Part shown: piece by piece, positions 2,551-24,416 of the stretch
How positions within the stretch are numbered: position 1 is the first letter of the stretch
Layout: each line of letters starts with the position of its first letter
Assembly (NCBI GenBank): GCA_020425125.1
Contig: JAGQRV010000023.1
Coordinates: 1-37,652 of the forward strand
Length of the DNA stretch: 37,652 nucleotides
Reading direction: 5' to 3'
Origin: Paracoccaceae bacterium
GTDB taxonomy: Bacteria; Pseudomonadota; Alphaproteobacteria; Rhodobacterales; Rhodobacteraceae
Position numbers and translations under genes: made by a program
The notes under the pieces: generated by a model
What the model was told of the DNA's origin: nothing
Seen by the model: the letters and a program-made list of their open reading frames with translations, nothing else
The model's database searches: none

Positions 2551-2713
2551 GCGAAGGAGAAGCCATCGCGGGCAGGAGCGCAAACGCTGTCGCTGGAAAC
2601 CGCGGGCCGAGCGTTGTATCGGGGGCGCAGGACGGAGCCCGGTTCCGACATCCCCATTGCGCGGGGGAGGTGGTCCAGAATCGCGCCGGCCACGAGGAGC
2701 AACGAACTCTGCG

Positions 2714-3829
2714 ATGACTGACGGCAGCCCCCCTCCGGTGAACGCTCCGTTCGATGGCCAGCGGATCGAGGCACGGGTGACGGACTTCGTCGTCCGTCTC
2801 ACGGTTCTCGGACTGTTCGTCTTCTGGTCGATCGAGTTGGTCCATCCCTTCGTGCCGCTGGTCGTGTGGGCGATCCTGCTGTCCGTCGCACTTCATCCGG
2901 CCCATCTGGTGTTGACCCGATGGCTCGGCGCCCGCCCGGGACTTGCGGCCGCGATCATCACCGTACTGGCTCTCATGGTCGTGCTTGGCCCGATAAGCCT
3001 TCTGACGGCAAGCGTCGTCGAGAACGTGCAATGGCTTCTGAGCGCGCTTCGCGAAGGCAGCTTGAAAATTCCGCCTCCGGGTCCGGGCGTCAAGTCCTGG
3101 CCACTGATCGGAGCAAGGGTGAGCGAGATCTGGTCACTGGCCTCGGCCAATCTCGAGGATGCGCTGGCCCGCTACGGGCCGGCCATGCTCCCGGCCGGCA
3201 GCACGATCCTGGGCAAGGCGGCGGCGATCGGAACCGACCTTGTGTTCTTCGTTCTCTCGGTCATCATCTCAGGCTTCCTGTTCGTTCCCGGACCGCGGCT
3301 TGCGGCCGGCGCTCGCGCCTTCGCCGAACGGCTGATCGCACCTCGCGGCGCGCATTTCGTCGATCTGGCCGGGGCGACGATCCGAAACGTTTCTCGTGGA
3401 GTGGTGGGTGTGGCCCTGATCCAGGCGCTTCTCGCCGGGATCGTGCTGATGGCCTTCGGCGTACCCGCAGCAGGCCTGATCACATTTGCAGCGCTGATCC
3501 TGTGCATCGTCCAGATCGGTCCGGCCCCGGTTCTGCTGCCCGTTATCGTCTGGGCATGGTTCACCATGTCCGCGACGCTGGCTTTCTTCCTGACCGTCTT
3601 GCTGGTTCCGGTGGTCGTCATCGACAATGTGTTGCGGCCGCTGCTGATGGCGCGCGGTCTCACGACCCCGCTGCTGGTGATCCTGACCGGCGTGATCGGC
3701 GGGACATTGACGCATGGGCTGATCGGGCTTTTCCTCGGGCCGATCGTGCTGGCCGTGTTCTACGACCTGGTCGTGGCCTGGGTGCAGATCGGCGGCGGGT
3801 CCGCAACTGGCGTGAAGCCGCCGCCCTGA
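2714..3829 (+). CDS. AI-2E family transporter (PerM/TqsA-like permease)
   Basis: A 371-residue membrane protein with the layout of the AI-2E transporter family: two N-terminal hydrophobic hairpins (VRLTVLGLFVFWSIELVHPF, VWAILLSVALHPAHLV, AAAIITVLALMVVLGPISLL), a central amphipathic soluble region (about 110-170), then hydrophobic segments containing the family-typical FGVPAAGLITFAALILCIV and VIDNVLRPLLMARGL, ending in GVIGGTLTHGLIGLFLGP. Family members export small molecules or act as Na+/H+ antiporters; the substrate here is unknown. I chose ATG 2714 (MTDGSPPPVN) because the family consensus starts close to there and GAGGAG lies upstream, though spaced rather far. It precedes two further plus-strand membrane genes after a 164-base gap, so co-transcription is possible. 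Confidence 0.87.
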   Translation: MTDGSPPPVNAPFDGQRIEARVTDFVVRLTVLGLFVFWSIELVHPFVPLVVWAILLSVALHPAHLVLTRWLGARPGLAAAIITVLALMVVLGPISLLTASVVENVQWLLSALREGSLKIPPPGPGVKSWPLIGARVSEIWSLASANLEDALARYGPAMLPAGSTILGKAAAIGTDLVFFVLSVIISGFLFVPGPRLAAGARAFAERLIAPRGAHFVDLAGATIRNVSRGVVGVALIQALLAGIVLMAFGVPAAGLITFAALILCIVQIGPAPVLLPVIVWAWFTMSATLAFFLTVLLVPVVVIDNVLRPLLMARGLTTPLLVILTGVIGGTLTHGLIGLFLGPIVLAVFYDLVVAWVQIGGGSATGVKPPP

Positions 3830-12198: not shown

Positions 12199-13500
12199 TC
12201 ATACGAAGCGGTTGACGATGTTTTCCAGGCGTTCCTGCCGCCCCGAGACAGGCCGCGGATTGACCCCTTCGGCCAGCACGCGGGCCGCGACGGTGGCAAG
12301 GTCTGACTGAAGCATCTGCTGGGCTTCCGGCGCGTCCCAGCCGGCATAGCGCTCGTCCCGCATCGCCTGCAGCGTACCGTCCTCGAGCATCCGGTAGGCG
12401 GCCTTGAGGCCCGCGGCGCAGGTATCCATCCCGCCGACATGCGCGGCGATCAGGTCCATCGGGTCGAGGCTCTGTCGGCGCAGCTTCGAGTCGAAGTTGG
12501 TGCCGCCGGTGGTGAACCCGCCCGCCTTGAGGATCTCGTAATAGGCCAGTGCCACCTCGGGTACGTTGTTGGGGAACTGGTCGGTATCCCAGCCCGACTG
12601 GTAATCGTTGCGGTTCATGTCGATCGAGCCGAGAATGCCCAGCGAGGCGGCCATCGCCAGTTCGTGCTCGAAGGAATGACCGGCGAGGATGGCATGGCCC
12701 TGCTCGATGTTGAGCTTGACCTCGCCTTCCAGCCCGTACTGCTTGAGGAAGCCGTAGATCGTGCCGACGTCGTAGTCGTACTGGTGCTTCGTCGGCTCCT
12801 GCGGTTTCGGCTCGATCAGCAGCGTGCCTTCGAAGCCGATCTTCCGGGCGTAGTCCACGACCATGTTGAGGAAGCGCCCGGCCTGCTCGCGCTCGCGCTT
12901 GAGGTCGGTGTTCAAGAGCGTCTCGTAGCCTTCCCGCCCGCCCCAGAGCACGTAGTTCTGCCCGCCCAGCCGGTGGGTCGCGTCGATGCAGGTCTTCACC
13001 GTTGCCGCCGCGAAGGCGAAGACCTCGGGGTCGGGATTGGTCGCAGCTCCGGCCATGAAACGGCGATGCGAAAAAAGGTTCGCCGTGCCCCAGAGCAGCC
13101 CGATGCCGGCCTTCTCCATCTTCTGGCCGATATAGTCGACGATCTCGTCGAGGTTGCGGGTGTTCTCGGCAAAACCGGCGCCTTCGGGGCGGATATCGGC
13201 ATCGTGGAAGCAGAAGTACGGCTGGCCGAGGATCGCGAACATCTCGAACGCCGCGTCGGCCTTCATCTTGGCATGGTCCATGTCGTCGCCGAACCACGGC
13301 CGCTCGAAGGTCTGGCCGCCGAACGGATCGCCCCCCGGCCAGGCGAAGCTGTGCCACCAGGCAATGGCGAAGCGGAGATGCTCTTCCAGCCGCTTTCCGC
13401 CCAGCATCTCGTCGGGATCGTAGTGGCGGTAGGCAAGCTCGCTGGTGGTGGCTGGACCCTCGAACTTGACGGGGGCGATACCGGCGAAGAAGTCGGTCAT
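12199..13500 (-). CDS. xylA: Xylose isomerase
   Basis: A 433-residue class II xylose isomerase converting D-xylose to D-xylulose. The catalytic His/Asp pair lies in [12 protein letters not shown] (His99, Asp102, by count). Metal-ligand regions are [39 protein letters not shown] and [20 protein letters not shown]. The NIEQGHA version, in place of the enteric NIEANHA, is common in alphaproteobacteria. Length and both ends fit the family. It is the last gene of the xylFHGBA operon; its ATG overlaps the xylB stop in an ATGA, so translation is coupled. Confidence 0.97.
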
Positions 13501-14936
13501 GAGAGATCCTTGAGGGCTTTGTAGGTCTGTCTGTAGCGGCCATGGGCGTCAGCGAAGGCCTGCGCGAGGCCCGCCTCGGGCGCGACCATGCGGGCGATGG
13601 CCGGCGGCGCGGCGATTTCGGGCCCGGCGCCCGTCGCGGCCATCAGGCCGAGCCGTGCCGCGCCGAACGCGGCGCCGAAATCCCCGGCCTCCGGAACTTC
13701 AACCGGCAGGCCGAGCGCGGTGGCGATGGCCGACAACCAGTAGGCCGAGCGGCTGCCGCCGCCGACGGCGATCAGGCTGTCGATATGGGTGCCGGTGGCG
13801 GTGAGCGCGTCGAGGCTGTCGCGAAGCGCGAACGCCACGCCCTCCAGGACCGCGCGGGTTCCGGCCTCGGTGTCGGTGGCGTGTTCGAGCCCGATCAGCG
13901 CGCCGCGGATGCGCGCGTCGTTGTGGGGCGTTCGCTCGCCGCCGAGATAGGGCAGGAAGAGCGTCCGCCCGGGCGCCTGCACCGCGCCGAGCTTTCCGGT
14001 CAGGTCGGCCGGGGTCTGGCCGGTGAAGCGGGCGAACCAGCTGAGGCTGTCGGCCGCCGACAGGATCACCCCCATCTGGTGCCAGGTTTCCGGCACGGCG
14101 TGGCAGAAGGTGTGCACCGAGCTGGCCGCGTCGGGGCTGTAGCGGGCGGTCGAGGCAAAGAGCACGCCCGATGTCCCGAGCGAGACGAAGCCCCTGCCGG
14201 GCGTGACTGCGCCGACGCCGACCGCCGAAGCCGCGTTGTCGCCGCCGCCGCCGGCCACGACCACGTCCGGGGCGAGGCCCCAGCGCTCGGCGATCTCGGA
14301 CCGGACCGTGCCCGAGACGGCCGAACCTTCGACCAGGGACGGCATCCGGGCGCGATCGAGCCCGGTCTTTGAGAGCAGCGTGTCCGACCAGTCCCGTGCG
14401 CCAACGTCGAGCCAGCTGGTTCCGGCCGCATCGGACATGTCCGACACGGCGTCGCCGGTCAGCCAGAGCCGCAGATAGTCCTTGGGCAGCAGGACCTGCG
14501 CGACCTTGCCGAAGATTTCGGGCTCGTTCCGCGCCACCCAGACCAGCTTCGGCGCAGTGAAGCCGGGGAAGACGATGTTGCCCGAGATGGCGCGGAACTC
14601 CGGATCGGCGTCGAGTTCCGCGGCTTCGGCATGCGAGCGGGTGTCGTTCCACAGGATGCAGGGCCGCAATACATTGTCGGCCTTGTCGAGGAGGGTGGCG
14701 CCGTGCATGTGGCCCGACAGGCCGATGCCGCGGACCTTGTCGAGCGGCTGCCGCGATGCCAGCGTGTCGAGGGTGGAGGAGACCGCGGTGACCCAGTCGG
14801 CGGGGCGCTGTTCGGACCAGCCGGGATGCGGGCGCTGAACGTCGAGCGCGGCATGCGCCTCGTCCACCACCTTCTGCGCCTCGTCGATCAGGAGCGCCTT
14901 GAGTCCCGACGTGCCGAGATCGAGTCCGATATACAT
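13497..14936 (-). CDS. xylB: Xylulokinase
   Basis: A 479-residue FGGY-family kinase phosphorylating D-xylulose to xylulose 5-phosphate for the pentose phosphate pathway. The N-terminus [18 protein letters not shown] is the first phosphate-binding loop with the conserved Asp. [27 protein letters not shown] and [16 protein letters not shown] (with the catalytic Asp) are xylulokinase hallmarks; [18 protein letters not shown] forms the adenosine site. The ATG at 14936 overlaps the xylG stop as TGATG, and the 3' end overlaps xylA by four bases. Longer open reading upstream is out of register with the real xylG product and is not part of this protein. Confidence 0.96.
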
Positions 14937-15682
14937 CACGCCGCCACCGCGGGCTTCTTGCCCATGATGATCATGCCGAGGATGTCGTCCTCGGTGACGT
15001 CCTCGACCCGGACCGTGGCGACGAGCTGGCCGTTCTTCATCACCGACACCCGGTCGCAGAGCGACATCATCTGTCGCGTGTCGTGGGAGATCAGGAAGAT
15101 GCCGAGGCCCTGGGCCTTGAGCTCCATGATCAGGTCGCAGACCATCTGGGTCTCGTGGACGCCGAGCGCCGCGGTCGGTTCGTCCATGATCAGGATCTTG
15201 GCGTTGAAGTAGACCGCGCGCGCGATCGCGACCGACTGGCGCTGTCCGCCCGAAAGCGCCTTCACCGGCGCCTTCAGCTTGCGGAAGTTGGGGTTGAGAC
15301 GCGCCATGATCTTGCGCGTCTCGGCTTCCATCTTGGCATCGTTCAGCATCCCGGTCCCGGTGACGATCTCGCGGCCCAGGAACAGGTTCGCGGGCGCGTC
15401 GAGATTGTCGGCCAGTGCGAGCGTCTGATAGATCGTCTCGATGTTCTGCTCGCGCGCGTCGCGGGGCGAGGCGATGGTGACCGGCTTGCCGTTGATCCGG
15501 ATCTCGCCCGAGTCGGCCTTGTAGGCGCCCGACAGGCATTTGATCAGGGTCGACTTGCCGGCACCGTTATGCCCCAGCAGCCCCACGACTTCGCCCGCGT
15601 GGAGGTCGATCGACACGTGGTCCACGGCCTGGACGCCGCCAAAGGCGATGGAGATGTCCTTCATTTCGACGAGCGGTGTCAT
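14936..15682 (-). CDS. xylG: Xylose ABC transporter ATPase, single-domain
   Basis: A 248-residue ABC ATPase with Walker [12 protein letters not shown], signature [13 protein letters not shown], Walker [13 protein letters not shown] and the H-loop ISHDTRQM. It has one nucleotide-binding domain, about half the length of E. coli XylG, which carries two in tandem. It would therefore work as a homodimer, as do FrcA-type ATPases of alphaproteobacteria. I start at ATG 15682, which overlaps the xylH stop as TGATG; an adjacent GTG at 15685 is an alternative. The xylose assignment comes from its neighbours. Confidence 0.93.
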
Positions 15683-16974
15683 CACAGCTCTCCCGTGCGC
15701 TTGCGATAGAGGATGTCGACGAGGACGGCGAGGACGAGGACGACGCCGACGACGATGTTCTGGAACGGCGCGTCGACGCCGACCATGGCCATGCCCGATT
15801 GCAGCGACTGCATGATCAGCGCGCCGAGGATGGCGCCGTGGATGGTGCCGAGCCCGCCCGAAAGCGCCGTGCCGCCGATCACCGCCGCGGCAATCACGCG
15901 AAGCTCGTCGAGCGTGCCGATGTCGTTCGAATGGAATGACAGACGCGCCGAGGCGACGACAGCGGAGAGAGCGCAGAGGATGCCCATGATCATGAAGATC
16001 TTTACGGTCAGAAGGCGCGTATTGATGCCCGAAAGCTCGGCCGCGTCGGGGTTGCCGCCGGTGGCGAAGATGTAGCGGCCCAGCCGGGTGCGGGTGGCGA
16101 TGATGGTCATCACCACGGCGATGGCGATCAGCAGGAGCACCGATATCGGAAGTCCGTAGGCTGCGGTGTAGCCCTCGGGCATGGTTTCGCCCCTTGCCTG
16201 GAAGGCGCGCTCCAGCACGCGGCTGGGCACGTCGTAGGCGTTGAGGATGGCGACGAAGCCGAAGATCACCAGCGCGGTCACGCCGCTCATCGCCAGTTCC
16301 GCCCAGGCCGGCTTCACCGGCTGCTCATGGGCAAGCTTGTTGCGACGGGCGCTCCATTGCGCGGCCACGGTGGCGGCAACGGCGAGAGCGGCGACGATCC
16401 ACGACCACGTGGCTCCGAGCGTGCCGCCGATGCCGCCGAAGGTCAGGAAGGTCGGGTCGAGCGGACCGATGGTCTGACCGGAGGTGATGTACCAGGCGAC
16501 GTTGCGCCAGACGAGCAGACCGCCCAGCGTCACGATGAAAGCCGGGATTCCGAGATAGCCGACGAGATAGCCGTGAAACGCGCCGATCAGTGCCCCCACG
16601 GCGATGCCGATCAGGATGGCCACCCAAGGGATCAGCGGGTTGCCAAGACCGAGACCGAGCGTGTCGGGCAGGAACCGCGTCTGGACGACGGCCATCACCG
16701 CCGAGCAGGTGGCCAGGATCGAGCCCACCGACAGGTCGATGTGCCGGGTGACGATGACGAAGACCATGCCGGTTGCCATGATTGCCACCGAGACAGTCTG
16801 GATCGTCAGGTTGAAGATGTTGCGCGGGGTAAGGAACTGTCCCCCGGTGATCACATTGAAGACGATGCAGACGACGGCGAAGGCGCCGACCATCCCGAGA
16901 AGCCGTGTGTCGATCTCGAGGGTCTGGATGAGGCTGCGCTTCGGAAGCGGCGATGCGGAAGCGGTGTCGGACAT
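15682..16974 (-). CDS. xylH: Xylose ABC transporter permease
   Basis: A 430-residue inner-membrane permease of the CUT2/RbsC-XylH class with about ten hydrophobic segments. Recognisable blocks are TARGET-like [36 protein letters not shown], the conserved [19 protein letters not shown] loop that contacts the ATPase, and [18 protein letters not shown]. Its length (longer than RbsC) and a hydrophilic insert around residues 205-225 ([15 protein letters not shown]) fit the XylH subgroup. It is preceded by xylF across an 87-base gap containing a strong hairpin and overlaps xylG by one base. Confidence 0.95.
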
Positions 16975-17016
16975 GAGGGCATGCTCCGGTGCGGGAGGGG
17001 TGTTCTAACCCGGAAT

Positions 17017-17042
17017 GCGCCCGCGCGTCGCGGCGCGGGCGC
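17017..17042 (-). other. Strong hairpin between xylF and xylH
   Basis: A perfect 10-bp inverted repeat, GCGCCCGCGC (17017-17026) and GCGCGGGCGC (17033-17042), with a 6-base loop. No U-run follows on the minus strand. In this position, just past a binding-protein gene, such a structure usually shields the upstream message from 3' decay or partly attenuates the downstream genes, so that far more binding protein than permease is made. The function is inferred from position. Confidence 0.6.
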
Positions 17043-17061
17043 GTTGATCAGACGGTGCCGA

Positions 17062-18087
17062 TCAGTTGCAGGGCGCGGGTCCGTTCGTCACGCCCTGGCA
17101 CAGCTCGTCTTTGCTGATCCAGCCGGCATCGACGACCACGCTGAGGTTGTCCTTCGTCACCGGGATCGGGGTCAGGAACTTCGCGAAAAGCTCCTTGCCG
17201 CTGGGAGAGGTCCATTTCACGGTGCCGGGGATGTCGGCCATCGCGGTGCCGCCGGCCAGCTCAACGGCGATCTCGCCCGCATTCTTGCCGAGCTCGCGCG
17301 CGTCCTTCCAGACGCTGACGGTCTGGGTGCCGAGCGCGATGCGGTTCAGGGCTGCCTTGTCGCCGTCCTGACCCGAAACCGGGATGCCCTGCATGCCTTG
17401 CGCCGCCAGCGCGGCCACGGCCCCGCCCGCGGTGCCGTCGTTCGATGCGACGACCGCATCCACGGCGTTGTTCTGCGCCGTCAGGATCTGTTCCATGTTG
17501 CGCTGCGCATTGGAGGGCAGCCACTGGTCGGTATAGGCTTCGGCGACGATGGTGATGTCGCCCTTGTCGATGGCATCCTGGAGAACTTCCTGCTGACCGC
17601 CGCGGAGGAAGTCGGCGTTCGGGTCCGTGGGCGATCCCTTGATCATCACGTAGTTGCCCTTGGGCGCCGCTTCGAGCACGGCACGGGCCTGCATCCGGCC
17701 AACCTCGACATTGTCGAAGGTCAGGTAGTAGGCGCGGGGATCGTCGATCAGCCGGTCATAGCCGAGAACCGGAATGCCGTTGTCGGTCGCGCTCTGCACC
17801 GCCGGGATGATCGCCTGGCTGTCCTGGGCGAGAATGATCAGCGCGTCGGCGCCCTGCGAGATCAGCGCCTCGACATCCGACAGCTGCTTCGAGGATGACG
17901 ACTGGGCGTCGGTGGAGATGTACTTGGCGCCGGCCGCGTCGAGTGCGGCCTTGATTGCGCCTTCATCGGTCTTCCAGCGCTCTTCCTGGAAGTTCGACCA
18001 GCTGACGCCCACCACGAGATCGTCGGCCACGGCAATCGCCGCCATGCCAACGGACATCGCCGCGGCGGCGAGTAGTGTCTTATACAT
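17062..18087 (-). CDS. xylF: Periplasmic D-xylose-binding protein
   Basis: A 341-residue type I periplasmic binding protein. A signal peptide (MYKTLLAAAAMSVGMAAIAV) ends before ADDLVVGVSW. The mature protein carries the XylF-like WSNFQEERWKTDEGAIKAAL, GADALIILAQDSQAI and IPVLGYDRLIDD (sugar-contacting Asp/Arg), AVVASNDGTAGGAVAAL and PVSGQDGDKAALN. Two C-terminal cysteines (ELCQGVTNGPAPC) probably form a disulfide. It delivers D-xylose to XylH. AAGGGAGG 7 bases before the ATG is among the strongest ribosome binding sites in the window, fitting high expression. It is the first gene of the operon and divergent from xylR. Confidence 0.96.
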   Translation of the reverse strand: MYKTLLAAAAMSVGMAAIAVADDLVVGVSWSNFQEERWKTDEGAIKAALDAAGAKYISTDAQSSSSKQLSDVEALISQGADALIILAQDSQAIIPAVQSATDNGIPVLGYDRLIDDPRAYYLTFDNVEVGRMQARAVLEAAPKGNYVMIKGSPTDPNADFLRGGQQEVLQDAIDKGDITIVAEAYTDQWLPSNAQRNMEQILTAQNNAVDAVVASNDGTAGGAVAALAAQGMQGIPVSGQDGDKAALNRIALGTQTVSVWKDARELGKNAGEIAVELAGGTAMADIPGTVKWTSPSGKELFAKFLTPIPVTKDNLSVVVDAGWISKDELCQGVTNGPAPCN

Positions 18088-18144
18088 GTAAAGCCTCCCT
18101 TGATTCGCCCGACGAGCGGGCCTCCAGCTTGACTGGATGGGTCA

Positions 18145-18173
18145 TCTATGGCGCACATTTTTTTAGTTGTCAA
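18145..18173 (-). promoter_or_regulatory. xylF operon promoter
   Basis: On the minus strand a consensus TTGACA (18173-18168) is followed after 17 bases by CATAGA (18150-18145). Transcription would start near 18138, about 50 bases before xylF. The -35 is perfect; the -10 matches about half. The -35 lies inside the 18157-18184 palindrome, which fits repression by the adjacent ROK regulator. Confidence 0.6.
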
Positions 18174-18184
18174 AATTAAAAAAT
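18157..18184. promoter_or_regulatory. AT-rich palindrome, likely XylR operator
   Basis: A 28-bp imperfect inverted repeat with 10 of 14 pairs matching. The left half begins ATTTTTTTAGTT and the right half ends AATTAAAAAAT. It is conspicuous in GC-rich DNA and lies between divergent xylF and xylR, as ROK-family operators with A/T arms do. It covers the xylF -35 and also a TTGTCA (18167-18172) that could be the -35 of xylR, so one bound dimer could block both genes. Confidence 0.6.
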
Positions 18185-18226
18185 CAGGATTAGGCTGCAA
18201 ATCGGGCTATGACCGCGTTTCCGAGG

Positions 18227-18255
18227 AATAATCTTGCGCTTGCAGCGAGATTATT
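18227..18255. repeat. Second inverted repeat in the xylF-xylR region
   Basis: AATAATCT (18227-18234) and AGATTATT (18248-18255) are perfect 8-base inverted arms separated by 13 bases. The site lies about 50 bases before the xylR start and about 70 bases from the centre of the first palindrome. It could be a second operator, allowing looping, or a hairpin in the xylR leader. Confidence 0.4.
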
Positions 18256-18302
18256 GCGGTGCGGCGAAGAAAAATATTCAGTCGGAGAACAAAGTCGGGC
18301 CG

Positions 18303-19562
18303 ATGGTGCGGATGGAGCGCAAGGACAGCATGATCCAGGGCTGCGGGCCCGTGCGGTCGCAGGTGGACCGTACGGCCAAGCCCCTGAGTCAGCAGGTCTT
18401 CGAGAAGATCCGTTCGGCAGGCCGGATCTCGCGCAGCGATGTCGCGAAGGATCTGGGGGTCAGTCCGGGCTCGGTGACCAGCGCGGTCGCGGCGCTGATG
18501 GAGGCGGGGCTGGTGCGCGAGGATCCGCGGCCGAACCGCGACACCGCGCGGGGGCGGCCGCCGGTGGACCTGACCATCGTGCCGGAAGCGCGCCACGTGG
18601 CCGGTCTGAACCTGCGCGAGGGGCTGCACAGCGCCGTCATCACCGATTTCGGCGGCACCGTCCTGGCCGAGGCCGAACTTCCCTGTGCGCCCGGCCGCAA
18701 GGATATCGGCGAACTCCTGACCGAGATCGACCTGCTGCTCGACCGCGCGTTGCGGCAGGCAGGGCTCGGGCGCGGCGATCTGGCGGCGGTCGGCGCGGGA
18801 CTGCCGGGATTTGTCGATTACGCTCAGGGCGTGGTCTTCTGGTCGCCGATCGTGCGCGAACGCCACGCGCCGCTGCGCGCGGTGCTGAACGACCGGCTGC
18901 CCTGCGCGGTGTATCTGGACAACGACGTCAACCTTCTGGCGCTGGCGGAATCCTGGTTCGGAATGGGGCGCCACATTGCCGATTTCGCGGTCGTAACGAT
19001 CGAGCACGGCGTCGGCATGGGGCTGGTCATAGACAATCAGCTGTATCGCGGCGCGCGAGGGATGGGGCTGGAAATCGGCCACACCACGGTTCAGCTCGAC
19101 GGCGCGCTGTGCCGGTGTGGCCAGCGCGGCTGCCTGGAGGCCTACATTGCCGATTACGCGCTGGTCCGGGAGGCCTCGACGGCGCTGGAGTGGGACGGGC
19201 GGGTCACCCGGTCGCCGCAGCAGACGCTGGAGGCGCTGTTCGACCAGGCGAAGGCCGGCAACGACGCGGCGCGGCTGATCTTTCACCGCGCCGGGCGCTA
19301 TCTGTCGGCGGCGCTGGCCAACACCATCCGCATCTTCGATCCCGAATTGCTGCTGATCTCGGGCGCGAGGCTGCGGTACGACCTGCTCTACGCCGAGGAG
19401 GTGCTGGCCGAGACCCACCGGTTCTCGGACCGGATCGGCCGGTCCCGCACCGAGATCGCGATCAATACCTGGGGTGATACCGTCTGGGCCCGCGGTGCCG
19501 CGGCGCTGGCGTTGGCCGAGGTGACCGACGCGCTGGCGCGCGATCCGCGCGGCGACGCCTGA
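18303..19562 (+). CDS. xylR: ROK-family xylose repressor
   Basis: A 419-residue regulator with an N-terminal winged helix (RISRSDVAKDLGVSPGSVTS, then EAGLVRED) and a C-terminal ROK sugar-kinase-like domain. The ROK zinc site is CRCGQRGCLEAY, with the conserved EIGHTTVQ His just before it; VGAGLPGFVDYAQG and TIEHGVGMGLVIDNQ form the sugar pocket. ROK repressors release DNA when sugar binds; xylose is inferred from the divergent xylFHGBA operon. I start at ATG 18303, the first ATG in frame. ATG 18330, preceded by AAGGA, is equally plausible and would shorten the protein by nine residues without touching the helix-turn-helix. Confidence 0.92.
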   Translation: MVRMERKDSMIQGCGPVRSQVDRTAKPLSQQVFEKIRSAGRISRSDVAKDLGVSPGSVTSAVAALMEAGLVREDPRPNRDTARGRPPVDLTIVPEARHVAGLNLREGLHSAVITDFGGTVLAEAELPCAPGRKDIGELLTEIDLLLDRALRQAGLGRGDLAAVGAGLPGFVDYAQGVVFWSPIVRERHAPLRAVLNDRLPCAVYLDNDVNLLALAESWFGMGRHIADFAVVTIEHGVGMGLVIDNQLYRGARGMGLEIGHTTVQLDGALCRCGQRGCLEAYIADYALVREASTALEWDGRVTRSPQQTLEALFDQAKAGNDAARLIFHRAGRYLSAALANTIRIFDPELLLISGARLRYDLLYAEEVLAETHRFSDRIGRSRTEIAINTWGDTVWARGAAALALAEVTDALARDPRGDA

Positions 19563-19567
19563 GGATG

Positions 19568-19588
19568 CGGCGGCAGCTCAGGCCGCCG
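19568..19588. terminator. Hairpin at the convergent xylR/ggpS junction
   Basis: CGGCGGC (19568-19574) pairs with GCCGCCG (19582-19588) around a 7-base loop that contains the ggpS stop codon. It sits where two transcripts converge and could help end both, but neither side has a U-run. Confidence 0.3.
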
Positions 19589-21086
19589 ACTGGTGATGCG
19601 CCTCGGCGTTCCGGAACAGGGCGGTCTGCGCTTCGGCCCAGGCCGTCAGATCGTGGCGGCGCACCCGCGCGCGCAGTTCGGCCATGCGGCCGCGGCGCTC
19701 CTCTTCTTCCATGTTCAGCGCCTGAAGGATCGCGCTGTCCATGGAGCGGTGCGAGAACGGATTGGTCATGACCGCAGGCGCCAGGTCGACCGCGGCGCCG
19801 GCGAATTCCGACAGGACGAGAACACCGTCACCGTCCGCGCGCGCCGCGCAGAATTCCTTGCAGACCAGATTCATCCCGTCCGCCAGCGGCGTGATCCAGG
19901 CGATATCCGCCGCCCGGTAATAGGCGACCAGTTCGGTGAACGGGATTGCGCGCGAGATCAGCGAGATCGGCTGCCAGTGGAAGCTGCCATAGGCACCGTT
20001 GATGCGCCCGGCCGCCTGCTCCAGTTCGTTCTGGATCTCCTCGTAGGCGGTCATGTTGCGGTTGGCGGCGACCGAGACATGCATCAGCCGGATCTTTCCC
20101 CGAAGTTCGGGATTGTCGCGCAGGACGCGGCCGAAGCTTTCCAGTTGCTCGATCCCGCCCTTGGTATAATCGGTGCGGCCGACCGACAGGATCAGCCGGC
20201 CCTCGCCGATTTCCTCGCGGATCCGGGTGAGGCGTTCTTCGGTCTCATCCGACGCGGCCTGGTCCTCGATGTAGCCCACGTTGACGCCAACCGGCGAGGC
20301 GCTGACCGCGATCCTGCGGCCCTCGTAGGCGATCTCGGTGACCTGGGTCCGTTCGTTGAGCGCGGTGCCTTCGTTGATCCAGTCCTCGGGCACCTTTTCC
20401 TGCCGCTGGATGGTGACGTCGAGCAGGCTTTTGACCACGGCCACGAAATTCTCGACATAGCGGGGAATGTGAAAGCCGACGATGTCGCAGCTCAGCAGGC
20501 TTTCGACGATCTCGCGCCGCCAGGGCAGCACGTTGAACATGTCGGCCGCCGGAAACGGCGTGTGGTGATAGAAGCTGATCTTCACGTCCGGGCGGAGCTG
20601 GCGGATATAGCCGGGCGCGAGCCACAGGTTGTAGTCGTGCACCCAGACCGAGGCGCCCGGTGCGGCCTCGTTCGCGGCGGCTTCGGCGAAGGCCCAGTTC
20701 ACCTCTCGGAAGGTTGGCCAGTCGACCGGGTCGTAATTGTAGCGTTCCTTGAAGGAATGCAGGATCGGCCAGAAGGCTTCCTTCGACGTGACGTGGTAGA
20801 AGCTCTTCACCTGGGCGGCCGTCAGCGGCAGGCGCGAGACCCGGTAGCTGCCGAACGAATCCTCGATTGTGACGACGCGCTCGAATTCGGGCTTGGCGAG
20901 ATCGTCCGCCAGCTTCCAGGCAACCCAGCTGCCCTGCTCGGCGCGGCCGAAGAAGCTTTTCAGCGTCGGCACGATGCCGTTCGGGCTGGTGTTCTCGCGC
21001 AGGATCACCCGTCCGTCTTCCTGTTCCACCTCCTCGTAGGGCTGGCGGTGATAGAGGATGACGAGATCGGATGTTTCAGATGGCAT
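19578..21086 (-). CDS. ggpS: Glucosylglycerol-phosphate synthase (GT20 family)
   Basis: A 502-residue GT20 glycosyltransferase. Close relatives include trehalose-phosphate synthase (OtsA), but the N-terminus LVILYHRQPYEEV with TSPNGIVPTLKSFF and QVKSFYHVTSKEAFWPILHS matches cyanobacterial GgpS as I remember it, not OtsA with its GGL-type nucleotide loop. Shared GT20 blocks are VWVHDYNLWLAPGYIRQL, SFYHHTPFPAADMFNVLPWR, LSVGRTDYTKGGIEQLESF and ITPLADGMNLVCKEF. It would join glucose from ADP-glucose to glycerol 3-phosphate, giving glucosylglycerol phosphate. The neighbouring HAD phosphatase and glycerol-3-phosphate dehydrogenase support this over trehalose synthesis. The ATG at 21086 has GGAG 7 bases upstream and overlaps the phosphatase gene by 11 bases. 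Confidence 0.9.
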   Translation of the reverse strand: MPSETSDLVILYHRQPYEEVEQEDGRVILRENTSPNGIVPTLKSFFGRAEQGSWVAWKLADDLAKPEFERVVTIEDSFGSYRVSRLPLTAAQVKSFYHVTSKEAFWPILHSFKERYNYDPVDWPTFREVNWAFAEAAANEAAPGASVWVHDYNLWLAPGYIRQLRPDVKISFYHHTPFPAADMFNVLPWRREIVESLLSCDIVGFHIPRYVENFVAVVKSLLDVTIQRQEKVPEDWINEGTALNERTQVTEIAYEGRRIAVSASPVGVNVGYIEDQAASDETEERLTRIREEIGEGRLILSVGRTDYTKGGIEQLESFGRVLRDNPELRGKIRLMHVSVAANRNMTAYEEIQNELEQAAGRINGAYGSFHWQPISLISRAIPFTELVAYYRAADIAWITPLADGMNLVCKEFCAARADGDGVLVLSEFAGAAVDLAPAVMTNPFSHRSMDSAILQALNMEEEERRGRMAELRARVRRHDLTAWAEAQTALFRNAEAHHQSAA

Positions 21087-21864
21087 GGTCGTACTCCGGT
21101 TTGCTCGGATGCAGGTTCTTGGCGGCGATCGCCTCGGCGATGCCCGCGGCGCCGATCGCCCGCGCCAGATAAACCTGCGGATGGTTGCGCACCTCTTCGA
21201 TGAGCGCGGGTTCGGAGCCGCCGACGGCCACCGCGGGAACGCCGCAGGTCAGCATGGAGAGGTCGTTCAGTGTGTCGCCTGCGGCGAGGACGTGCGCCGG
21301 ATCCATGCCGAGATGGTCGATCAGCCGCAACAGCGACGGCCCCTTGCTGACGCCCGGCGGCAGGACGTCGAAATACATGTCGGCCGAGACCAGCGGTTCC
21401 AGGCCCATGGCGCGGATCAGTTCCGCGCTCTGCGGATGGAATTCGTCGGGGTCCAAGTCGTAGCTGACGCGAAAACGGAAGTCGGTCGGCTGCAGCGTCA
21501 GTCCGGCATGGCCTTCGAGAGCGGATCGGACCTCGTCGCCGCGGTCATCCCAGAGCCGGGCGATCTCGGCCTCGAGCGCCGGAAGCGGATGGATCGTGGC
21601 ATCTGCGGCGACCTCGGCGATGGTGGTGCCGACATCGCCCACCACGTAGTCGGGGCGGGGCAGCCCGTCGCGCACCATGCCGGTGATGAAGTCCGGGTCG
21701 CGCCCGGTGACGAACACCAGTCCGACCGTGGCCCGGTTCGCCTCGATCCAGCCGTAGAGGTTGCGGCGGTCGGCGTCGGTCCCGCCGAGGAAGGTGCCGT
21801 CGAGATCGGTGGCGAGCGTGAAGGTCCGCTGCGCCAGGGCTGGCAGGGCGGCTGCGTCGGTCAT
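21076..21864 (-). CDS. HAD-superfamily phosphatase, probable glucosylglycerol-3-phosphatase
   Basis: A 262-residue HAD type IIB phosphatase like sucrose-phosphate and mannosylglycerate-phosphate phosphatases. Motif I is ATDLDGTF (Asp20 and Asp22 by count), motif II FVTGRD, motif III the Lys in PPGVSKGPSLLRL and motif IV AAGDTLNDLSMLTC. It probably dephosphorylates glucosylglycerol phosphate to glucosylglycerol. It is much shorter than, and in my reading not homologous to, cyanobacterial StpA, so this would be an unrelated enzyme for the same step. Substrate is inferred from context. It overlaps gpsA by four bases (ATGA) and ggpS by eleven, so all three are translationally coupled. Confidence 0.85.
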   Translation of the reverse strand: MTDAAALPALAQRTFTLATDLDGTFLGGTDADRRNLYGWIEANRATVGLVFVTGRDPDFITGMVRDGLPRPDYVVGDVGTTIAEVAADATIHPLPALEAEIARLWDDRGDEVRSALEGHAGLTLQPTDFRFRVSYDLDPDEFHPQSAELIRAMGLEPLVSADMYFDVLPPGVSKGPSLLRLIDHLGMDPAHVLAAGDTLNDLSMLTCGVPAVAVGGSEPALIEEVRNHPQVYLARAIGAAGIAEAIAAKNLHPSKPEYDHAI

Positions 21865-23003
21865 GACATCCTCTGGGTCAGGTCTTCTTCGGCGGCGCTG
21901 CCGCCGGGATGGTCGAGCGAGATCGAGAGGCTGCGCGGCTCGGCCTTCAGCGGGCGGGCCCAGAGCCGCGCGAAGGCTTCGGAGAGAGGGACGCCCTCAT
22001 GCAGCACCGCATGGACGCATTCACAGATCGGCATGCTGACCTTGACCTTGCGGGCAAGCTCGATCACCGACACGGCGTTGACCTCGCCTTCGACCACGAC
22101 GTCCTTGCCGTCGAAGCACTCGGCACGCGTCTTGCCGGCGCCCAGCTGTGCCCCGAGGGCGAAGTTCCGCGACGTGGTCGACGAGCAGGTCAGCGTCAGG
22201 TCGCCTGCGCCCGACAGGCCGGTCACTGTCTCGCGCCGTCCGCCCAGAACTTCGGCAAGGCGCTTCATCTCGTCCATGCCGCGGGTGATCAGCGCGGCGC
22301 GGGTATTCTCGGCGAAGCCGGCGCCGGTCATCATCCCGCAGGCGATGGCGATCACGTTCTTCACCGCGCCGCCGACCTCGACACCGATCGGATCGTCCGA
22401 GATGTAGGGGCGGAAGCCCTTGCCGCCGAGCGCGATGGCGAGGCGCGCGGCGGGGCTGTTCTCGGGGTGGAGCCGGTCCTGATAGGAAAACGGAAACGCG
22501 ATGGTCGCCGCGGTGGGATGGCCGAGCGCGGTTTCGCGCGCGAAGGTCGGCCCCGAAAGAACGCCGACCGGATGGTCGGGGATCTCCTCTTCGGCCACCT
22601 GGCTGAGCAGAAGCCCGGTGCCGCGCTCGATCCCCTTGCAGCACAGCACGACCGGGATGCCCGGGCGCAGATGCGGGCGGATCATCCGGCAGATGTCGCG
22701 CAGTGTCCGGGACGGCGTGACCACGAGGACCGTGTCTGCATCGCGGCAGGCCGCGGCGGCATCGGTGGTTGCGGTGATGCCGTCGGGCAGCGGGATGGCG
22801 TCGAGATATCGGCTGTTCAGGCGGTGCGTGTTGATGTCGTCGACCACGTCGTCGCGGCGTCCCCACAGGGTGACCGTGCGCCCGGCGCTCGCGGCGACCA
22901 CGGCAAGTGCGGTTCCCCAGGCTCCGGTGCCGATCACGGCGACCCGTGCAATTGCGGCATTGCCGCCGGACGGCAGCTCGTCAGGTGAGATGTCAAGTAC
23001 CAT
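21861..23003 (-). CDS. gpsA: Glycerol-3-phosphate dehydrogenase [NAD(P)+], pathway-dedicated
   Basis: A 380-residue GpsA-family enzyme reducing dihydroxyacetone phosphate to sn-glycerol 3-phosphate. The Rossmann loop is VAVIGTGAWGTALA; VLCCKGIERGTGLL and GVLSGPTFARETALGHPTAA follow, then VGGAVKNVIAIACGMMTG with the catalytic Lys, and GLSGAGDLTLTCSSTTSRN. The start at ATG 23003 has AAGGAG 8 bases upstream. It has an N-terminal extension of about 18 residues (MVLDISPDELPSGGNAAIA) before the usual start and a C-terminal tail of about 35. As first gene of the operon it would supply the glucosyl acceptor. A separate housekeeping gpsA probably exists elsewhere (inference). Confidence 0.92.
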   Translation of the reverse strand: MVLDISPDELPSGGNAAIARVAVIGTGAWGTALAVVAASAGRTVTLWGRRDDVVDDINTHRLNSRYLDAIPLPDGITATTDAAAACRDADTVLVVTPSRTLRDICRMIRPHLRPGIPVVLCCKGIERGTGLLLSQVAEEEIPDHPVGVLSGPTFARETALGHPTAATIAFPFSYQDRLHPENSPAARLAIALGGKGFRPYISDDPIGVEVGGAVKNVIAIACGMMTGAGFAENTRAALITRGMDEMKRLAEVLGGRRETVTGLSGAGDLTLTCSSTTSRNFALGAQLGAGKTRAECFDGKDVVVEGEVNAVSVIELARKVKVSMPICECVHAVLHEGVPLSEAFARLWARPLKAEPRSLSISLDHPGGSAAEEDLTQRMS

Positions 23004-23115
23004 GAGATGGCTCCTTGTACCGCAATAGAACACATTTTTTCAACCCGACGGGGCTTGCCGGGGCGATTTTGCGCTTGCAGCATCGTCGCGCGCGCCGATG
23101 GCCGCGCCGGGGGTC

Positions 23116-23190
23116 CAATTTTCGGTGGGACCGTCATCCGTTAGCGCAATCTCACCGACCTTCCGGGCCTGTCGCGTCTATCGAAAATTG
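23116..23190. repeat. Spaced 9-bp inverted repeat upstream of the glucosylglycerol operon
   Basis: CAATTTTCG (23116-23124) and CGAAAATTG (23182-23190) are perfect inverted copies, AT-rich in GC-rich DNA, 57 bases apart. They lie 113 and 179 bases upstream of the gpsA start. They may be two sites for one regulator. No clear -35/-10 pair can be placed with confidence here. Confidence 0.35.
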
Positions 23191-23283
23191 CACCGAATTC
23201 CGTGATTTCCCATCTGGCCTCACGAAACCGTGATCCGCAACATCGGGTGTGAATCGCCGTCCGGTTGTGTGTCGTGCTCGGAA

Positions 23284-24192
23284 CTATGCGCCGCTTCTCA
23301 GGATGCCGCCGTGCAGCGTTTCGGTCGGGAACGCCTGAAGCACGAGATCCATGAAGGCGCGAAGCCGGGCCGACAGCGCCTGGGGGCTCGGATAGACGAA
23401 GCAGACCTCTCTGGGCTGGCATTGCCAGCCGTCCAGCACCTCGACGAGGCGCCCCTCGGCCAGGTCCCGCTCCACCAGGAACAGCGGTAATTGCGCCACC
23501 CCGGCACCGCCGAGCGCGGCCTCCCGCAGCGCGAAGTAGCTCGTCATCGCCAGTCCGCCGGCCAGCCGGACCGAGCGGTCGCGGTGGCCGTCGCTGAAAT
23601 GCCAGCTCTGCACGAGCCCGACGCCGAAAAGCAGGATCGGCAGGTCGGACAGATCGGCGGGATCGGGCAACGGCGCCGGGATCAGTTCGGGCGCGGCGAC
23701 GGCGGCGCGGTGCGAAGCGGCGATCCGCCGCGCCACGAAGGGGCTGTCGACCGGACGCCCGACCCGGATCGCGGCGTCGAAGCCTTCCTCGATGAGATCC
23801 GGCTGACTGTCGGTCAGGACGATCTCGAGGGTGAGATCGGGATAGAGCGCGCGGCTGACCGCCACGATCTGGCCCATGAAGGCCTGCCCGAACAGGACCG
23901 GCGTCGCAATCCGCAAATGCCCGCGCACCGCGTCGTCCGCCTCTCCGAGCGCCCGGGCGATCTCGCTGGCATCGGCAAGGATGCGCTCGGCCCGTGCGAG
24001 GACCAGCGCGCCTTCCGCAGTCAGGCTCACCTTGCGCGTGGTGCGTTCGATCAGCCGGACGCCGAGCGCGGATTCGAGGTCCTGGATCCGCTTCGAGACG
24101 GTCGATTTCGGTGTGCCGAGCTTGCGCGCGGCTGCCGCGAAGGACCCTTCGGCCGCAATTGCGCTGAATTCCCTGAGTGCGTTGAGATCCAT
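23284..24192 (-). CDS. LysR-family transcriptional regulator
   Basis: A 302-residue LTTR, the standard length. The N-terminal helix-turn-helix is FSAIAAEGSFAAAARKLGTP with KSTVSKRIQDLESALGVRLIERTTRKVSLT; the effector domain begins about residue 90 (GHLRIATPVLFGQAFMGQIV). It belongs to the group that starts MDLNALREF, whose members include CrgA- and AaeR-type regulators. I start at ATG 24192, which gives the canonical beginning, with GGTGAGG just upstream. It lies downstream of nothing on its strand that is clearly coupled, and no gene is divergent from it within about 225 bases, so its target cannot be read from position. Confidence 0.92.
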   Translation of the reverse strand: MDLNALREFSAIAAEGSFAAAARKLGTPKSTVSKRIQDLESALGVRLIERTTRKVSLTAEGALVLARAERILADASEIARALGEADDAVRGHLRIATPVLFGQAFMGQIVAVSRALYPDLTLEIVLTDSQPDLIEEGFDAAIRVGRPVDSPFVARRIAASHRAAVAAPELIPAPLPDPADLSDLPILLFGVGLVQSWHFSDGHRDRSVRLAGGLAMTSYFALREAALGGAGVAQLPLFLVERDLAEGRLVEVLDGWQCQPREVCFVYPSPQALSARLRAFMDLVLQAFPTETLHGGILRSGA

Positions 24193-24416
24193 CCTCACCG
24201 TCCAGATTTTCGGACAAAGAAAACATGGCGCCGCGTCAATTCCAAGCCAAAAGCACCTGCTGCGGACGGGCTCGATACTCGGTGCCCGTCGCGTGGGCAG
24301 GTCGTGTGCGAACCGGCGATGATCGCGACGCAGGCCGCCATCCCGTTGCGGGTCGGGCTGCCTGCCCGTGGTCCCGCTTGGGTCGCACGGAGAACGGTCC
24401 TGACTTCTGCGGGGGG

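Follow-up and report, generated by a model that had tools for sequence, protein, structure and literature searches.

We analysed a stretch of 37,652 nucleotides, hereafter the window, from a Paracoccaceae bacterium of the family Rhodobacteraceae (assembly GCA_020425125.1, contig JAGQRV010000023.1). Its minus strand carries three overlapping genes at positions 19578-23003: a gpsA-like gene, a gene for a HAD phosphatase, and ggpS. The first-pass annotation of the DNA had described them as one unit, and the open reading frames of the window bear this out, since gpsA overlaps the HAD gene by 4 base pairs (bp) and the HAD gene overlaps ggpS by 11 bp (Table 1). We refer to the three genes as the cassette. 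The picture that emerges is of a putative glucosylglycerol operon whose distinct GpsA, a predicted glycerol-3-phosphate dehydrogenase and the only one found in the genome, most likely also feeds phospholipid synthesis.

Table 1. Positions of the cassette genes and of the features next to them in the window.
Feature	Position	Strand	Size	Description
gpsA	21861..23003	minus	380 amino acids	Predicted operon-type NAD(P)H-dependent glycerol-3-phosphate dehydrogenase isozyme
HAD-IIB phosphatase	21076..21864	minus	262 amino acids	Predicted glucosylglycerol-3-phosphate phosphatase
ggpS	19578..21086	minus	502 amino acids	GT20 glucosylglycerol-phosphate synthase (predicted)
5′ stretch of gpsA	23004..23283	minus	280 bp	Presumed location of the operon promoter
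ROK-family regulator/kinase	18234..19562	plus		Convergent with ggpS, 15 bp gap; xylose-transport neighbourhood begins here; outside the cassette
LysR-family regulator	23284..24300	minus		Upstream of gpsA, assumed start codon; outside the cassette

The ggpS product was assigned to family GT20 in a family scan (PF00982, E=5e-130). With the NCBIfam equivalog for GgpS, TIGR02398, it scored 655.7 bits (cut-off 569), whereas with the OtsA equivalog TIGR02400 it reached 399.2 bits and remained below the cut-off of 564.85. A survey of 394 genomes of the family yielded 67 with a ggpS above the TIGR02398 cut-off, and five residue blocks were conserved in 66-67 of the 67 GgpS proteins. In a tree of 58 rows the GgpS proteins, with that of the window among them, were split from 18 OtsA-type rows at a Shimodaira-Hasegawa-like approximate likelihood ratio test (SH-aLRT) support of 99; this tree was built by a quick method, carried a long-branch warning and held no cyanobacterial GgpS rows, and the OtsA label stands for scores under the GgpS cut-off. 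The GT20 protein thus does not fall inside the OtsA trehalose synthases, a possibility that the first-pass annotation had raised, and an OtsA identity was ruled out by the TIGR02400 score together with the separate clade. A glucosylglycerol function of the cassette, as predicted from its proteins, is well supported. In 44 of the 394 family genomes (e.g. G004 and G006) only GgpS matches below the cut-off were present, which are probably OtsA-like; the window's genome has no such matches besides ggpS.

The HAD protein contains all four HAD motifs and matched PF05116 in the family scan (E=6e-39). Sucrose-phosphatase-like models scored highest in NCBIfam, and the general HAD-IIB model was the only one whose cut-off was reached. 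An identity with StpA, the cyanobacterial phosphatase also named GgpP, was ruled out because its model, TIGR02399, was absent among the protein's 15 model matches at E up to 0.001. None of the 67 ggpS genomes matched TIGR02399 in a genome-wide search, but no control genome matched either, so that this count is not standalone evidence. The protein is instead of the type that forms the N-terminal domain of fused GgpPS proteins, with 42% identity over 233 columns (E 1e-45 for L247 and 1e-43 for L246). In a phylum-wide draw of 398 genomes, 12 had a ggpS above the cut-off, the window's genome included, and in 5 of these 12 a HAD domain is fused ahead of GgpS (G741 has an in-frame TGA, and the script-chosen start in L250 removed part of the HAD domain). 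From this homology and from the gene fusion, the HAD protein is predicted to be a glucosylglycerol-3-phosphate phosphatase. The fused layout is reported for the gammaproteobacteria Marinobacter, Pseudomonas and Stenotrophomonas (PMC10873239). It resembles the cassette in that its HAD phosphatase and its GT20 synthase are homologous to those encoded here and likewise serve glucosylglycerol synthesis, and differs in that the window has two separate, overlapping genes plus gpsA; upstream of the 5 fusions read, no gpsA match was found within the available DNA, roughly 0.7 kb or less. As a separate observation, in locus L255 of G396, which lies outside the class, the HAD gene preceding an unfused ggpS (~752-1466) shows up as two tblastn pieces that may reflect a broken or divergent gene.

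The GpsA of the window matched PF01210 and PF07479 and scored 383 bits with NF000942 (cut-off 257). Its predicted model, with a mean predicted local distance difference test score of 86.7, was closest to the Coxiella GpsA 3k96. When 59 operon and 35 housekeeping rows were placed in one tree by a quick method, the two types of GpsA separated perfectly (SH-aLRT 100), with the window protein in the operon clade; the split persisted with 8 rows added (62 operon and 40 housekeeping rows). Residues K123, K215, N216, D268, T272, R279 and N280, which we take to be catalytic, are invariant and common to both types. The operon type is marked by insertions at 171-179 and 296-300, by a C-terminal tail, which has low confidence in the predicted model, and by nine near-fixed residue differences. 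As the window gpsA lies outside the slot between tsaD and the YciI and EVE genes and outside the housekeeping clade, it is not of the housekeeping kind, and a relocated housekeeping gpsA was ruled out by the GpsA trees, the insertions and the tail. As far as these comparisons go, the operon encodes a GpsA isozyme of its own, one that moves together with the cassette.

This gpsA was the single PF07479 match in the window's own genome. The ggpS genomes have two matches in 39 cases and one in 28, the latter comprising 20 genomes with the operon gpsA only (the window's genome, its sister G341 and 18 further family members), 7 with the housekeeping gene only, and G233, whose match is of the operon type and which was excluded from the counts (87% complete, no tsaD found). 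The housekeeping gpsA lies directly after tsaD in all 35 housekeeping-copy genomes whose tsaD region was read, namely 21 of the 39 two-copy genomes, the 7 housekeeping-only genomes and 7 ggpS-negative ones. For 16 of the remaining 18 two-copy genomes, coordinates put the second gpsA next to tsaD; in G067 a housekeeping-type copy precedes YciI-EVE with no tsaD found adjacent, and G222 has its housekeeping-type gpsA at a contig end, away from a vacant tsaD-YciI-EVE slot. By comparison, the slot was vacant in 20/20 operon-only genomes. YciI or EVE followed within ~125 bp of tsaD in 19 of these 20, with distances extrapolated from tblastn ends, and in G318 neither was found after tsaD. The tsaD region of the window's genome is intact on one contig, where YciI lies an estimated 122 bp behind tsaD and gpsA is missing from the gap. 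The housekeeping GpsA is retained beside tsaD in each of the 7 ggpS genomes that lack an operon gpsA. Since no other GpsA was found, the operon GpsA likely serves phospholipids too. A side observation concerns G067 (L275, 2324-3235; L274), where the TsaD match is only 44% identical to the TsaD of Dinoroseobacter shibae and lies on a separate contig from gpsA-YciI-EVE; tsaD may have been replaced in this genome.

A PF07479 match was also present in 116 ggpS-negative genomes (42 + 74), and the five longest of the 116 matches (>=417 bp, that is, at least 417 bp) were typed. Those of G033, G122 and G169 lie beside tsaD and are housekeeping-like, and those of G007 and G094 are of the operon type, with 69% and 65% identity to it vs 42-43% to the housekeeping type and a position within the operon clade. 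The lone operon-type gpsA is the sole PF07479 match of either genome (L279 ~2680-3810 in G007, L281 2925-3998 in G094); no HAD or ggpS match was found beside it, and a TIGR02398 match is listed for neither of the two. In G094 it sits behind g25947-frk-dtd-LysR, the upstream neighbours of the window. On the simplest reading, the cassette once stood there and took over, and the osmolyte genes were then lost; an ancestral lone operon-type gpsA may be an alternative origin. Whichever origin applies, the operon-type enzyme seems capable of filling the housekeeping role.

Among high-quality genomes, the housekeeping gpsA was absent in 20/59 operon carriers vs 10/117 non-carriers (Fisher p=7e-5). These 10 comprise genomes without a PF07479 match (6/44 and 2/67) and G007 and G094, with 0/6 from the ggpS genomes that lack an operon gpsA. 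Counted by the presence of an operon-type gpsA, the figures are 22/61 vs 8/115 (p=3e-6). The 130 ggpS-negatives were drawn from genomes without a TIGR02398 match, and for many of them negativity follows from their not being listed. Mapped onto trees of the 41 carriers read, the single-copy pattern required 13 state changes with the operon GpsA and 11 with TsaD. Therefore, the pattern arose many times, whether by gain or by loss.

In the proposed pathway, GpsA would reduce dihydroxyacetone phosphate to glycerol-3-phosphate, GgpS would join it with glucose from a nucleotide sugar to form glucosylglycerol-3-phosphate, and the HAD phosphatase would release glucosylglycerol, a compatible solute. 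The glucose donor, judging from the family, is probably ADP-glucose made by GlgC, which is encoded on contig C81 of the same genome (487.6 bits, cut-off 424.9). The cassette does not make its donor, and the description as self-contained in the first-pass annotation was too strong. Induction by salt would be expected of such an operon, and the host presumably lives in salt. Where it is the sole copy, the same GpsA would also supply glycerol-3-phosphate for phospholipids. As this metabolite is shared by membrane lipids and osmolytes, a sole gene within an osmolyte operon suggests that growth and salt protection are firmly coupled.

We lean towards a history in which the solute operon repeatedly captured a core function of lipid synthesis: after the operon had arrived, its GpsA would have displaced the housekeeping enzyme in many separate lineages. 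One enzyme from one operon would then serve both ends, the mobile cassette would become hard to lose, and in G094 and G007 only the captured gpsA would be left. This offers a route by which a mobile accessory cassette becomes indispensable: it brings along a duplicate form of a core gene, after which the resident form disappears. With one-copy and two-copy strains in one family, plus genomes that have the isozyme only, the idea is directly testable.

Several observations weigh against this interpretation. The window's genome encodes a glycerol kinase over its curated cut-off (697 bits), which could bypass GpsA if external glycerol is available. No gpsA match at all was found in 8/50 and 6/80 ggpS-negative genomes of two samples (8/111 at high quality). 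All 5 of these gpsA-less genomes that were read (L159-L163: G014, G017, G056, G059, G063) have a vacant slot, so that loss is possible without the operon. A vacant slot alone is no proof of loss, as G222 shows, and the Fisher tests ignore kinship among genomes. The donor could be UDP-glucose, as a GalU-like gene, so named from its sequence, is divergent before the cassette in 20/66 other loci. Finally, the case is genomic, and the window's genome is a draft of 109 contigs. As to its position, the GalU-like gene lies ~0.3-0.7 kb upstream of gpsA in L035, L037, L040, L047, L049 and others.

Four other explanations were weighed against a replacement of the housekeeping gene by the operon GpsA. 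It is unlikely, but the least so of the four, that the housekeeping gpsA was lost first and the cassette acquired later, its GpsA then being retained. The gpsA-less, ggpS-negative members of the family fit such an order, as do the cassettes on plasmids and in other orders, and gain and loss look the same in the tree counts; yet with two PF07479 matches in 39 of the 67 ggpS genomes, coexistence before loss appears to be common. We also consider it improbable that the operon GpsA works for glucosylglycerol alone and that lipid glycerol-3-phosphate comes by another route, e.g. from glycerol kinase and scavenged glycerol. The kinase gene would permit this, and another route must work in the gpsA-less relatives without the operon, but the sole GpsA of both G007 and G094 is of the operon type and stands without ggpS, the housekeeping gene is missing more often in operon carriers, and every ggpS genome without the operon gpsA has kept it. 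A different product of the GT20 enzyme, either trehalose phosphate or a compound made from another acceptor such as glycerate, is very unlikely: OtsA belongs to the same family, and among solved structures the window protein matches OtsA-type entries best, but the equivalog scores, the separate clade and the glycerol-3-phosphate-making enzyme encoded in the same operon argue against it. Hardly credible is an assembly artefact in which a real housekeeping gpsA is missing from the draft, for despite the many contigs and the displaced copy of G222, the tsaD region is unbroken, sister G341 likewise has a single copy and a vacant slot, and the listed completeness of the genome is 100.

The first-pass annotation had implied that the triplet is rare and had pointed to other Rhodobacterales as the place to look for it. 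The loci of the 66 other ggpS genomes of the family were analysed, and the complete triplet, in the same order gpsA-HAD-ggpS, was present in at least 58 of them and HAD-ggpS in 64, a recurrence that exceeds chance and shows the triplet to be common. With script-chosen start codons, gpsA and the HAD gene overlap in 42 of the 58 triplet loci, by 4 bp in 39. The 8 loci without gpsA belong to G233, G272, G002, G251, G196, G037, G303 and G179; in G233 the cassette runs off the end of its contig, and a separate contig carries an operon-type gpsA next to a HAD gene. Of the best 80 of 487 confirmed loci in named genomes, which include Rhodovulum, Hoeflea, Palleronia, Celeribacter and Roseobacter, 68 had the triplet, as had 3/3 plasmid loci read, and the HAD gene was present in 83/83; at least 2 of the 12 named loci without gpsA (L201, L242) start <1.5 kb before ggpS. 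Rhodovulum produces glucosylglycerol. The plasmid triplets lie on pDSHI02 of D. shibae, on a plasmid of Falsirhodobacter algicola, both typed as non-mobilizable, and on the megaplasmid pTM3 of Tistrella mobilis, typed as conjugative. In alphaproteobacteria, marine ones included, ggpS commonly comes as part of this triplet, which occurs in other orders and on plasmids as well.

The GgpS proteins of Hoeflea, Oricola and Aquisalinus nest within the Rhodobacteraceae branch of the GgpS tree. In 41 genomes, the pairwise distances of GgpS, the HAD protein and the operon GpsA remained correlated after removal of the TsaD distance (partial r 0.68, 0.76 and 0.66), and 0/500 permutations gave values as high. 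For the housekeeping GpsA, used as a control in 21 genomes, the partial r was 0.40-0.46, lower, yet above zero. Movement of the cassette as one piece, as proposed in the first-pass annotation, is supported because there are plasmid copies, copies in other orders and correlated distances, all of which point to a history of moving as a unit, even though two of the three plasmids were typed as non-mobilizable. Phage copies of the cassette were searched for, and only 4 distant records were found. Locus L214, from a record titled Enemella evansiae TN21-6 (Propionibacteriaceae), coincides with G002:C1 of the window's family and is probably mislabelled or contaminated.

Glucosylglycerol synthesis itself is a known pathway, and what appears to be new here is the arrangement with a dedicated isozyme as sole GpsA. 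The open PMC literature, with most subscription journals outside its scope, yielded no description of the alphaproteobacterial triplet or of a replacement of the housekeeping gpsA. The same triplet on pDSHI02 is annotated as NAD(P)H-dependent glycerol-3-phosphate dehydrogenase, HAD family hydrolase and ggpS; D. shibae differs in having it on a plasmid and in retaining a housekeeping gpsA beside tsaD (L140). The glycerol-3-phosphate dehydrogenase of Dunaliella salina (6iuy), a eukaryotic enzyme, has the same fold as the window GpsA and acts in osmolyte production, with glycerol rather than glucosylglycerol as product. A search for ectoine synthase gave no match in the window's genome, but no control matched in that search, and no absence is claimed.

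The cyanobacterial system of ggpS, ggpP (stpA) and glpD shares the GT20 synthase family and the two-step route with the cassette and differs in the phosphatase family, as noted above. That cyanobacterial ggpS is usually not packed with a glycerol-3-phosphate dehydrogenase gene, as stated in the first-pass annotation, holds insofar as the genes are usually unlinked; the link as such was already known, as operon-like proximity is given for 7/23 strains having both in PMC5862535, where the dehydrogenase is EC 1.1.5.3, whereas the window gene is GpsA. A figure legend in PMC6753628 lists glpD, gpsA and glpK around ggpS/gghA, and cyanobacterial clusters also include gghA and glpK according to the same article. 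In Synechococcus 7002, the ggpS, stpA and glpD transcripts were raised at high salinity (PMC3468840). An engineered cyanobacterium that overexpressed a glycerol-3-phosphate dehydrogenase made 26-42% more glucosylglycerol (PMC8168540), and this gain is a plausible reason for a dedicated GpsA. For alphaproteobacteria, ggpS appears in a published gene table of Paraoceanicella profunda (PMC7002103).

In the 280 bp 5′ of gpsA no sigma-70-like site was found, and terminator-like sites showed no excess over shuffled sequences. When 59 sequences from upstream of gpsA were compared for a common promoter motif, only GC-rich words came up, none of them convincing, although some exceeded simple shuffles. 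The GC content is 0.66-0.68 over the cassette and 0.63-0.71 over the window, and as the former lies within the latter range, composition gives no foreign mark. The cassette is flanked by a xylose set (xylulokinase, xylF, a permease and the ROK regulator; window 13497-19562) and by a stretch of LysR, dtd and a sugar kinase gene. Both flanking stretches recur in Phycocomes zhengii, the sister genome G341, with LysR, dtd and frk upstream and ROK, xylF and xylH downstream of the cassette, and the same flanking genes were matched in Fluviibacterium aquatile. The LysR gene is thus near the cassette in both species, and it precedes the lone operon-type gpsA of G094. A recent insertion at the window site, which would make the cassette a recent arrival in this lineage, is unsupported given these common flanking genes; judged by this shared neighbourhood, the site is old in the window's own lineage.

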